From Aphelidium insulamus (Eukaryota > Aphelidiomycota > Aphelidea > Aphelidiaceae), in the NCBI GenBank assembly GCA_036784855.1, contig JAZDSV010000056.1, positions 1 to 64,000 on the forward strand: a stretch of 64,000 nucleotides of DNA, written 5' to 3'. The notes below the pieces were generated by a model. That model was not told the DNA's origin. It worked only from the letters and a program-made list of their open reading frames with translations, and ran no database searches. The first letter of the stretch is position 1. Each line of letters opens with the position of its first letter. Below are positions 24,888 to 38,944 of this stretch, piece by piece. The translations under genes and the position numbers were made by a program.

Positions 24888-25830
24888 ATGCATCCGACTG
24901 TAACAGTTTTGACCGCGCTGACTACCAGCGCCTGGAGCACTGCGTACGGCCAAGATGTTTCACTCCAAGCTGTGCCGATCGGTGTTCTTGGCGCAAATGC
25001 CGCGGCCAGTCAAGCGCAACCCACCAGTACAGCGGGCGCGGTCACACCAGAGATTGTGGGTGGTGTGCATGCGCACAACGAATACCGCTACGCCAACTGG
25101 ATGGGCGCCATTTTCGTCGACGGTCAATTCAACTGTGCCGGCACAATATTTAGCAAGAACCGACTGGTCACTGCGGCCCGTAAGTTGTGCTCATCTGCTA
25201 CGTATGTATGTAACAAACCCGGAAACTCATATTGCACCTTTACTTGCGCGCATAGACTGCAGCGAGTTTGCCGCCAAGCGCCTCACTGTCAAGGTGGGCA
25301 GGTATGACATGAGCAAATCGACGCGGGAGGAAGGAGGAAAGAACTTTTCTGTGGACCGAGTGCACGTGCATCCCAAGTTCTCCGACAGCACTCTGGACTA
25401 CGATGTCGCTGTGTGGGAGCTGTCGGGCAGCGTCACCGATCGCTATGTCAACTTGGACGATGGATCCAGTTCGACTCCGGGCACCAAGTGCACTGTGCTC
25501 GGCTGGGGCACCACTAGTGAAGCCGGCACACGTATCAGCAATCAGTTGAAGCAAGTGGTAGTCACCGTGTGGCCAGACGCCCAGTGCCGCGCCAACACCG
25601 AACTCCAGCAACAGTACGGCGTCACTGACAGAATGATTTGTGCTGGTGGCCGTGTGAATCGTGACTCGTGCCGCGGGGACAGTGGCGGCCCGATGCTGGT
25701 GCCGAAAAACGGCGGTCGCCCCATTCTCACTGGTATTGTGAGCTGGGGTGCTGGCTGTGGCCATGTCAATACGCCTGGAGTGTACACCCGTGTCTCTGCC
25801 GTTCGTGACTGGATCATGGGCTTTGCATGA
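24888..25830 (+). CDS. Secreted trypsin-like serine protease (S1A), catalytic triad intact
   Basis: Exon 1 is 24888-25179 and exon 2 is 25256-25830; the 76-nt intron splits the codon of the catalytic His, giving VTAAHCSEF. A signal peptide (MHPTVTVLTALTTSAWS region) and a propeptide lead to the mature end IVGGVHAHNEYRYANW. The triad is complete: His in TAAHC, Asp in LDYDVAVW, Ser in CRGDSGGP. The residue six before the Ser is Asp (VNRDSCRGDS), with SWGAGC and PGVYTRV behind it, which predicts trypsin-like cleavage after Arg or Lys. The residue just before IVGG is Glu rather than Arg or Lys, so zymogen activation would need a different protease. It is the left partner of a tandem pair with the gene at 26215. 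Confidence 0.95.
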
Positions 25831-26214
25831 GTACTTTTGATATGAGAGTATGTACTAAAACTTAATCTCCTGCTTGAACCTGTGCATCAACCGCAATCCA
25901 GTGCATTGCGGAGCAGGTCAAATAATCTGCGGTTAGCTGCGCTCATATTTAGAAGCAATTATTGTCATCATTCGAATGGAAATAACTGTATTGAGTCAAA
26001 TAGCCCATCAACAGTGTACATGTAATTCAGGGACGGTGAAAGTGAGCTGTGATTGGGCACCGACCGAAATTGGCAATATTGCGCCGACCAATCGGCGCGT
26101 CAACAGCGTTTGACAAACAGTTGTGTAACCTTGACCGAAACCCTACAAAATCGCCGCGCCGCAAACACGCAGCTCTCAAACAGCAAAACAGCTCTAAAAC
26201 TTCCAACATTGAAA
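25831..26214. promoter_or_regulatory. Spacer between the tandem protease genes
   Basis: 384 bp without a coding exon. It holds a perfect 7-bp-arm inverted repeat at 26081-26098 (GCGCCGA-CCAA-TCGGCGC) that embeds a CCAAT box about 117 nt before the next start codon. No TATA box is obvious. Confidence 0.45.
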
Positions 26215-27113
26215 ATGAAAGCCGCACTGTTCGCCGCCGCCTGTGCTTTGACCATCGCTGCCGTAGCCGATGTGGCCACAGTATCTGGAGAGGGTGTGCC
26301 TTCCACACCGCTACTGATTCCAAACACAATCACTCCGAACATTGTGGGTGGCACAGTTGCGGCAACAAGCTTCCGCTACGCCAAGTGGAATGCTGCACTG
26401 TTTGTTGACGGTGTCATTAATTGCGGTGGTGCCATTTTCGCCAAGAACTTTCTGGTCACTTCTGCTCGTAAGTGTGCTGTATGTGCACGTGATTCCGAAC
26501 TCGTATGACTCATGTCTGTTTGTGTGGCGTAGAGTGCAGCTTGTTTGACATTAGCCGCCTAACTGTCAATCTTGGCCGTTTCGACTTGAGCAAGACAGTG
26601 GACGAAGAAGGCGGCATCCCCTTCACCGTGGCCAGCGTGACGATCCATCCCAACTTCAACCCGGCCACGCTGGACTACAATGTTGCGGTTTGGCAGCTTA
26701 CCGGCAACCGCACAACTCGCTACGTCAACCTCGACTCGGGCTCATCTTCGATTGCGGGCACCAAAAACATTGTGCTGGGCTGGGGCTCCACCAGCGAAGC
26801 CGACACAACCTCCAGCGGCTTGCTGAAGCAAGTAACGGTGCAGACAATTGCCCAGGAAGTTTGCGCCGCCAACACAAACTTGCAGCCCGTGCACTCCATC
26901 ACGGATTCGATGCTGTGCGCAGGCGGTCGCCTCAACCGCGGCCCGTGCCACGGTGACGAGGGCGGCCCGCTGGTGTTGCCCACAAATGGCCGTCCCATCC
27001 TCACCGGTGTTGTCAGCTGGGGCGTTGGGTGCGGACGCGCAAACACGCCGGCGGTGTACACTCGCATCTCGCTGGTGCGCGACTGGATGTTCACTCTGAT
27101 CACCCCGCAATAA
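26215..27113 (+). CDS. Secreted trypsin-fold pseudoprotease (all three catalytic residues replaced)
   Basis: Exon 1 is 26215-26467 and exon 2 is 26533-27113. The intron sits at the same place and phase as in the left neighbour, so the two arose by tandem duplication. The signal peptide is clear (MKAALFAAACALTIAAVADV). The fold is kept: IVGGTVAATSFRYAKW, CGGAIFAKNFLVTSAQC, GWGSTSEAD, VVSWGVGCG, PAVYTRI and paired cysteines. The triad is lost: the His codon now spells Gln (TSAQC), the Asp is Asn (LDYNVAVW) and the Ser is Glu (CHGDEGGP). The specificity Asp is Gly (RGPCHGDE). The reading frame is otherwise intact, which argues for a maintained non-enzymatic protein such as an inhibitor, binding or regulatory homolog, although recent decay is possible. 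An AATAAA lies at 27210. Confidence 0.93.
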
Positions 27114-37529: not shown

Positions 37530-37597
37530 ATAGAACCGCTTTTTTAACGTGTCGATCTCTATATCACAATGCCAAGCACACCAGTAGCGCTTGAGGT

Positions 37598-37613
37598 GGT
37601 GTTTAAAAACACC
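37598..37613 (-). terminator. Histone-type 3' stem-loop of H2A
   Basis: Reading the H2A strand, 40 nt after the stop codon, the sequence is GGTGTT-TTTA-AACACC: a perfect 6-bp stem starting GG and ending CC, with a 4-nt loop. This is the geometry of replication-dependent histone mRNA 3' ends that SLBP binds in animals. No AATAAA is seen between the stop codon and 37540. Confidence 0.8.
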
Positions 37614-37653
37614 ATTGAATAGTTAATGTAGACTCCACAAGATTATCCAACAT

Positions 37654-38043
37654 TTAGTGTTCCTGGCTAGCACCCTTCTTGGACTTTTGCGGCAGCAGCA
37701 CCGAGTGAATGTTGGGCAGCACACCACCCTGGGCAATGGTGACACCTCCCAGCAGCTTGTTCAACTCCTCGTCGTTGCGGATGGCCAGCTGCAAGTGACG
37801 CGGAATGATACGGGTCTTCTTGTTGTCACGCGCGGCGTTACCGGCCAACTCGAGAATTTCAGCAGTCAGGTACTCGAGGACGGCGGCCAGGTACACGGGG
37901 GCGCCGGCACCAATGCGCTTGGCGTAGCTGCCCTTGCGCAGTTTGCGGTGAATGCGGCCCACGGGGAACTGCAGACCGGCCTTGGACGAGCGGGACTTGG
38001 TAGCCTTGGCGGCGGGTGCAGCGGCGTTCTTTCCTCCAGCCAT
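37654..38043 (-). CDS. H2A: Histone H2A with C-terminal SQE motif
   Basis: Single-exon core histone of 129 residues. The start at 38043 gives [20 protein letters not shown], then [60 protein letters not shown] and [19 protein letters not shown]. Acidic-patch residues (EYLTAE, NDEE) are present. It ends GASQEH: the SQE motif phosphorylated by ATM/ATR-type kinases in H2A.X and in fungal H2A, but with a terminal His in place of the usual hydrophobic residue. [11 protein letters not shown] has Lys where most H2As have Leu. Divergent from H2B through a palindromic promoter. Confidence 0.97.
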
Positions 38044-38117
38044 TGTAAAAGTAGATGTAGATGTATAAGTGAGAGTCGATATAACACACAGACAGTCAGT
38101 GCACAGAAAACCAACAG

Positions 38118-38243
38118 CAATCAAGCGCCCAATTTATAGGCGCGACCGATGTCAAGGCCAATCCGGCGCAACCGAAGCGCCGCCGCCACAACAAACGGAT
38201 TGGCTTTGACACTGGTCGCGCCTATAAATTGGGCGCTTGATTG
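38118..38243. promoter_or_regulatory. Symmetric palindromic H2A/H2B bidirectional promoter
   Basis: Left arm 38118-38165 and right arm 38196-38243 are inverted copies of 48 bp with about three mismatches, around a 30-bp centre. Each arm carries CCAATCCG near the centre, then GGTCGCGCC, then a TATAAATT box, then GGGCGCTTGATTG. The TATA boxes lie about 90-95 nt from each start codon (38043 and 38313). The mirrored layout should give matched H2A and H2B transcription. Confidence 0.88.
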
Positions 38244-38312
38244 CCCGCTGTTACGCCACCCGCCTTCTACAGTTTATTACACAGACAGTCAGTCACCCAC
38301 TCAACTCTAACT

Positions 38313-38696
38313 ATGCCGCCCAAAGCCGAAGCCGCCAAGAAGCCCGCCTCCAAGCAGCCCGCGGGCAAGAAGCCCAAGGTCGTCGACGCCAGCAAGAAGA
38401 AAAAGTCTGCCCGCAAGGAGACCTACAACACGTACATCTACCGCGTGCTGCGCCAGGTGCACCCCGACGTCGGCATCAGCAACAAGGCCATGTCTATTCT
38501 CAACTCGTTTGTCAATGACATTTTCGGCCGCATTGCCGGTGAGGCGTCCAAGCTTGCTGCCTACAACAAGAAGTCGACCATTGCGTCCCGCGAGATCCAG
38601 ACCGCCGTCCGTCTGCTGCTCCCAGGTGAGCTGGCCAAGCACGCCGTGTCCGAGGGTACCAAGGCCGTGACCAAGTACACGTCGACTGCTCAGTAA
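38313..38696 (+). CDS. H2B: Histone H2B
   Basis: Single-exon core histone of 127 residues. The start at 38313 gives [20 protein letters not shown] with a Lys/Ala-rich tail, then [60 protein letters not shown] and [20 protein letters not shown], ending KYTSTAQ. The ubiquitin-acceptor Lys in AVTKYTS is conserved. It shares the palindromic promoter with H2A. Confidence 0.98.
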
Positions 38697-38748
38697 ATTG
38701 GTCGTTAGATGCTTGCATATTCGAGTTGACTATATTTAAGATCTCAAT

Positions 38749-38764
38749 GGTGTTTCTAAACACC
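38749..38764 (+). terminator. Histone-type 3' stem-loop of H2B
   Basis: GGTGTT-TCTA-AACACC, 52 nt after the H2B stop codon: the same 6-bp stem as downstream of H2A with one loop change. The shared AATGGTGTTT lead-in and identical stem in two otherwise unrelated 3' regions indicate function. I see no purine-rich downstream element like the metazoan one. Confidence 0.8.
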
Positions 38765-38944
38765 GCCCCATCTTCTCTTGATTATGGCACACACCCTCAG
38801 TTTCTGCGCATACATATGTATTTACCTCACAGAAGCACATCTACACACTTCTTGTACATGTTCCAGCCTTGTAAATACAAGTTGCTGCAACAGGCCAAGA
38901 TATATGTCAGGTTAAGGTCTGCCGCAACAGAGCAATCACATACA

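Follow-up and report, generated by a model that had tools for sequence, protein, structure and literature searches.

Histone genes and their 3' hairpins

The window analysed here (64,000 nt, positions 1 to 64,000 of contig JAZDSV010000056.1, C126 in our numbering) belongs to Aphelidium insulamus, an aphelid and algal parasite that is close to the Fungi but not a fungus proper; aphelids are described as the sister lineage of Fungi (PMC10608142). It carries a divergent pair of intronless histone genes, H2A (37654..38043, minus strand, 129 amino acids, Pfam PF00125 and PF16211 above cut-off) and H2B (38313..38696, plus strand, 127 amino acids, PF00125 above cut-off), flanking a promoter region (38044..38312) in which an inverted pair of CCCAATTTATAGG boxes can be read. 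Each gene is followed by a hairpin of the type bound by the stem-loop binding protein SLBP, hereafter hairpin 1: for H2A it reads GGTGTT-TTTA-AACACC and lies 40 nt past the stop codon (37598..37613, minus strand), for H2B it reads GGTGTT-TCTA-AACACC and lies 52 nt past it (38749..38764, plus strand). Both had been pointed out in an earlier, sequence-only reading of this DNA, and their coordinates were verified; its remark that they depart from the metazoan 16-nt plan at pair G4-C13 also proved right by eye, against the animal consensus. A further stem-loop that this reading had not mentioned, hairpin 2, lies 3 nt past each of them. In H2A it has an 8-bp stem, TCAAGCGC/GTGCTTGG including G-U pairs (37572..37594, minus strand), picked up by stem scans and shuffles, while in H2B stem scans found a 4-bp stem, CCAT/ATGG, that encloses a shorter one of 2 bp (38768..38787, plus strand).

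We then searched the A. insulamus genome (17.95 Mb, 169 contigs; the published assembly is given as 18.93 Mb in 274 scaffolds with 52.05% GC, PMC10608142). Eight canonical core histone genes were found, two each of H2A, H2B, H3 and H4, arranged as two divergent H3-H4 pairs on C92 and as H2A-H2B pairs on C100 and C126. Hairpin 1, with its 16 nt, 6-bp stem and 4-nt loop, was present in the sense orientation at all eight, 40-52 nt after the stop codon (for the frameshifted H2A gene on C100, a distance taken by eye from the sequence), which agrees with the replication-dependent stem-loop plan (up to about 100 nt from the stop). Its flanks, AAY...RCC, were likewise oriented with the reading frame in the eight genes. 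The sequence-only reading had proposed looking for the hairpin at other histone genes, and it was indeed recovered at all four H3 and H4 genes of the canonical clusters, but not at two H1-like loci. The second H2A gene (C100:64210-64760) bears a frameshift after about 60 codons, due to mutation or assembly error, and keeps both hairpins.

A genome-wide pattern search located the skeleton GGNGTTNNNNAACNCC at 21 places (42 rows, as the pattern matches both strands), compared with 11 for a reversed control pattern, and 8 of the 21 are the 3' untranslated regions (3'UTRs) of the eight canonical genes. With the Rfam Histone3 family (RF00032), allowing E up to 10, nothing but the two window hairpins matched between 36000 and 40000; they scored 21.3 bits (H2A) and 19.2 bits (H2B). 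Genome-wide, where 75 of 1753 candidates were scored, the seven best matches were all canonical histone genes (31.6-21.3 bits, E 2.5e-6 to 0.018) and the next listed reached 16.2 bits; the window H2B hairpin was absent from that list. At E up to 10 RF00032 also gave matches in 14 bacterial and archaeal control genomes, none above cut-off. Since no hairpin attained the gathering score of 34 bits, the best standing at 31.6, we limit our claim to stem-loop-like working in an outlying lineage and do not extend it to Rfam membership.

Histone-type loci outside the canonical set behaved differently. No convincing match to the tandem hairpins was obtained, with filters off, at an H3 variant (C108), a CENP-A-like gene (C1) or the H1-like loci (C99 and C129), where the best score was 6.7 bits vs at least 46 at the histone genes, the latter having helped to build the model. 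The hairpin thus accompanies 8/8 canonical genes and 0/4 other histone-type loci. H2A.Z was not found in the genome, and Pfam histone matches on C131 and C125, NF-Y- or CHRAC-like by eye, were excluded from the variant count. The lack of AATAAA near the hairpins, also noted previously, holds for the 300 nt downstream of all eight genes (AATAAA or ATTAAA); it says little, because only about 1.2 occurrences would be expected by chance. No exact match to hairpin 1 plus its 3' flank was seen in viral contigs, a search from which records near the A. insulamus genome were possibly left out.

A second stem downstream of hairpin 1

Hairpin 2 was found at all eight canonical genes as a stem of 4-8 bp starting exactly 3 nt after hairpin 1, giving a tandem layout of GGUGUU-N4-AACACC, a 3-nt spacer RCC and a second hairpin of variable stem and loop. 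Its ends read CCA...UGG in seven genes and UCA...UGG in one. The stems are CCATT/AATGG in H3, CCATT/GATGG in H4, CCATTC/GAATGG and CCAT/ATGG in H2B, and CCAAGCGC/GTGCTTGG and TCAAGCGC/GTGCTTGG in H2A, so that compensatory changes distinguish the histone gene types; the H2B copy of the window is the weakest of the eight. When start offsets 16-59 were scanned, the mean best stem over the eight genes peaked at 5.75 bp at offset 19, with 4.75 to 3.5 bp at offsets 20-23, partly the same stem shortened, and 1.88-3.62 bp elsewhere. At random window positions, a stem of 4 bp or more (G-U allowed) has a frequency of 0.32, and one of 5 bp or more a frequency of 0.147. A lone short stem is therefore unremarkable, and the weight of hairpin 2 comes from the agreement of the stems across genes. 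To quantify it, the 41 downstream bases were shuffled 20,000 times and the sum of stems was compared with that observed, which was reached in none of the shuffles with all eight genes, in 4 (strong choice) or 26 (weak choice) with one gene per histone type, and in 126 with the two window genes alone.

Covariation was analysed in a 12-row alignment (A2) whose loops were cut by hand, so that it leans to structure. In A2, 95.8% of the cells were paired vs 86.6% after shuffling, double-change cells numbered 16 vs 6.3, and the covariation score was 0.255 vs 0.083, none of the three values being reached in 500 shuffles; neither the count of changing pairs nor that of pair types exceeded shuffling. 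Pairing fell to 35-61% when the partner was slid by 1-3 columns. At its fourth pair, hairpin 2 has U-A in six of the rows, C-G in four and A-U in two. On this comparative evidence hairpin 2 is likely to be a real RNA structure, a view we hold with good confidence. We found no report of a histone pre-mRNA with a second stem-loop.

SLBP and a non-histone family sharing the tandem hairpins

The genome encodes SLBP, a gene whose presence had been suggested as a check on the hairpins. On C160 (92000-99500), PF15247 matched two adjacent exons with 52.2 and 36.1 bits (cut-off 27), compared with matches in 0/14 control genomes, and a hand-made model of seven exons stays in frame over 572 residues. Its RNA-binding domain aligned with four histone RNA hairpin-binding proteins of the PDB (4tux, 4tv0 and 4tuw, which we take to be from Drosophila, and 4l8r, presumably human) at E 9.4e-18 to 5.8e-14, with the motifs GKNT, TP-K and LH aligned in the two PDB alignments examined. 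A first protein search returned four matches; the nearest named one, from Amoeboaphelidium occidentale, is 66% identical along half of the 181-residue query. A profile search then reached 250 proteins at E up to 0.001, and among the matches listed, with names taken from the best 120 of the 250, were Allomyces macrogynus, A. javanicus, Batrachochytrium dendrobatidis, Piromyces finnis, Saprolegnia, green algae and a 'Partr' transcript taken from its prefix for Paraphelidium tribonemae. The SLBPs of Allomyces, Batrachochytrium, Piromyces and Amoeboaphelidium share RQKQ..GKNT, and the presumed Paraphelidium one has RLKQLSIGKNT. The earlier suggestion that the hairpins mark retention of an ancestral mechanism is supported by the co-occurrence of hairpin and SLBP in an aphelid; the retention itself would not be unique, SLBP being among the listed matches in zoosporic fungi proper. 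We found no paper on SLBP in zoosporic fungi, nor one joining SLBP, histone and Batrachochytrium.

The N-terminal part of the A. insulamus SLBP contains the motifs RRVRP, PPPG, GDW, KRRL and RTPRAP, which recur wholly or partly in the Amoeboaphelidium and Paraphelidium-like proteins and in two unnamed ones. The motifs common to the three aphelid-type SLBPs are missing from those of Allomyces, Batrachochytrium and Piromyces, and among the other SLBPs viewed KRRL appeared only in one sea anemone protein.

Of the 13 GGNGTTNNNNAACNCC places outside histone genes, 11 belong to a single multicopy, intron-containing, non-histone gene family, which rules out chance as their origin; the remaining two (C95, and C160:3218, the latter seen as 16 letters only) have other stems and look like chance. 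Two more copies, on C105 and C164, have an altered hairpin 1, and in all, the tandem hairpins (R1) matched 13 of the 14 family loci examined, distributed over C2, C16, C42 (three), C53, C93 (two), C101, C105, C118 and C164 (two), some of them decayed; no match was obtained at the relic C118:317751. Hairpin 2 is intact in 10 of these 13, and the C53 place is a fragment of about 105 bp of the family gene. A TATA promoter, the start MRKKKRS and an intron with GTATGT...CAG ends are seen in the better copies, and the protein of the second exon is 31-39% identical between two subfamilies. In subfamily B an AATAAA lies about 50 nt before hairpin 1, and its transcripts may be polyadenylated. Pfam, the database in which homologues were sought, gave nothing for the proteins at E up to 1.

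The family also shares a core promoter with the H4 genes. The element GGCGGCTATAAAAGGC is exact at 13 places, namely the two H4 genes, 10 copies of the family and, as judged by eye, the relic, and 14 further places differ by one mismatch, one of them a family copy and 13 unexamined, which weakens its candidacy as a histone-specific signal. How the copies spread was considered as well. Retrotransposition of mature mRNA is unsupported, the intron and promoter being kept and two copies sharing sequence past hairpin 2. Among seven copies tested for target-site duplications, four had nothing of at least 7 letters and three had single 8-9-letter matches, none convincing. A Helitron-type origin was rejected because the ends do not fit.

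Possible routes to the histone 3' end

In animals the stem-loop is bound by SLBP, U7 small nuclear ribonucleoprotein (snRNP) pairs with a histone downstream element (HDE) and CPSF73 cleaves (PMC7614891). A U7-like gene, which the sequence-only reading had advised seeking, was not found in A. insulamus, in searches that were weak: RF00066 gave no match at E up to 10 with 65 of 1641 candidates scored, and the genome contains no TCTAT-spacer-AATTTNTCTAG site, i.e. no U7-like Sm site preceded by TCTAT. Lsm10 and Lsm11 were not seen among 15 LSM loci classified by eye, an incomplete scan that missed LSm1 and LSm3 too; the 15 include one SmD1-like and one SmD2-like protein. Two SmG-like genes, so judged by eye, lie about 1 kb apart at C93:138900-140250. 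Downstream of the eight histone genes no word was significant after correction, the best 6-mer being TCTATT (3/8, p 2.4e-5 uncorrected). Of the 19 tandem structures, 9 have ATAGA in the 70-nt stretch that follows +44, namely those of 2/8 histone genes and 7/11 family copies. AATAGA follows hairpin 2 by 3-15 nt, at varying distance, in 7/11 family copies; as a histone downstream element it was discarded, for its 7/19 structures (p 5e-9, uncorrected) are all in the family and none at a histone gene. The sequence TGATATAGAGA downstream of the hairpins is common to the H2A gene of C126 (37556-37566, minus strand) and the H2B gene of C100.

Judged from sequence, hairpin 1 very probably serves as an animal-type SLBP site in histone mRNAs of the replication-dependent type, at their 3' ends. 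SLBP would bind it in the pre-mRNA, and the 3' end would be formed close by without poly(A), the cut probably being made by the general endonuclease CPSF73. Animal histone pre-mRNAs are cut about 5 nt past the stem. That point would lie here inside the 5' arm of hairpin 2, which implies that hairpin 2 is a processing signal, is opened by processing or stays in the mRNA. With modest confidence we favour a part in the processing signal, because hairpin 2 offers a helix roughly where the U7-HDE duplex sits, and this intramolecular helix would mark or protect the 3' end. Taken as a whole, an account combining SLBP-type ends, a tandem structure and a hairpin 2 that fills part of the downstream-element role appears probable to us. 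That hairpin 2 actually replaces U7-HDE pairing is a more tentative proposal, towards which we do not lean. Still more speculative, and rather doubtful, is the wider scenario in which aphelids exchanged the intermolecular U7-HDE helix for the intramolecular hairpin 2 in a U7-free SLBP pathway, and the non-histone family took over the tandem signal and an H4-like core promoter for co-expression with histones. The word 'histone' was not found by a term search in the main text of a zoospore RNA-seq paper (PMC11767097).

Processing might instead be animal-like, with a diverged U7 snRNP that escaped detection, and with cleavage 4-5 nt past hairpin 1; hairpin 2 would then be a side effect of flank conservation or have a minor stabilising role. 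The 3' flank RCCCCA does resemble animal ACCCA, the purine-rich ATAGA recurs at the frequencies given above, and Lsm10/11 could have slipped through the LSM scan as LSm1 and LSm3 did; on the other side stand the negative RF00066 and Sm-site searches, an LSM set with a single SmD1-like and a single SmD2-like member and none resembling Lsm10 or Lsm11, and the absence of a significant downstream word, and we regard this route as unlikely. We are somewhat more sceptical of a transcript ending just past hairpin 2, in which both hairpins would be kept in the mature mRNA as a terminal cap against 3' exonucleases. Counted from the first base of hairpin 1, homology between family copies often ends at +42 to +48, where hairpin 2 finishes or just past it, while the 5' limits vary (one set of sequences was cut at +55, a limit reached by two pairs), and by eye the duplicate H3 and H2A genes diverge right past hairpin 2. 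However, the family copies retain intron and promoter and so are not copies of mature mRNA, the C16 and second C164 copies remain alike past hairpin 2, as do the two H4 genes by eye, and C. elegans histone mRNAs are described as ending 3-6 nt after the hairpin (PMC1924863).

The 16-mer is also close to a DNA palindrome and occurs 3' of a non-histone family, whose subfamily B has the AATAAA upstream of hairpin 1, as might be expected if it were a DNA element, either a transcription factor site or a terminator, with histone mRNAs polyadenylated and SLBP serving something else. This seems very improbable, given that the flanks are oriented to the reading frame in the eight genes, that confinement to the 3'UTRs of canonical histone genes, 40-52 nt from the stop, matches the setting known for SLBP, and that the genome encodes SLBP.

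The SLBP-based reading that we prefer places A. insulamus near the metazoan system: a stem of 6 bp and a loop of 4 nt make up the 16-nt plan, the 5' flank is rich in A and the 3' flank is of ACC type, the canonical histone genes lack introns, and SLBP is encoded. The aphelid differs in the G-C at the fourth pair, in having hairpin 2 where animals have the cleavage site and HDE, and in that U7, Lsm10 and Lsm11 were not found by the weak searches described. C. elegans shares a hairpin and an SLBP (CDL-1), and its U7 snRNA was, in the account of PMC1924863, still to be sought; its downstream region, however, holds AATAAA and a conserved AATCC element (PMC1924863), whereas in the aphelid hairpin 2 follows and AATAAA is missing from the 300 nt downstream. 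The likeness to Allomyces, Batrachochytrium, Piromyces, Paraphelidium and Amoeboaphelidium is at the protein level, through the PF15247 SLBPs among the matches listed. According to a statement in a 2019 review, the histone stem-loop is used by animals and some protozoa and not by plants or fungi (PMC6723414). If the listed zoosporic-fungal entries are right, the fungal part of that statement fails at the gene level for zoosporic fungi, and SLBP retention is not peculiar to A. insulamus. A full set of hairpins with SLBP in the sister group of Fungi, together with SLBP in zoosporic fungi, would place the loss within Fungi, and if a tandem hairpin does stand in for the U7 target, it would provide a simple test of making histone 3' ends without U7.

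Elsewhere in the window, two adjacent open frames (24888-27113) carry motifs of GDSGGP and GDEGGP type, by which they resemble serine proteases of the trypsin type.
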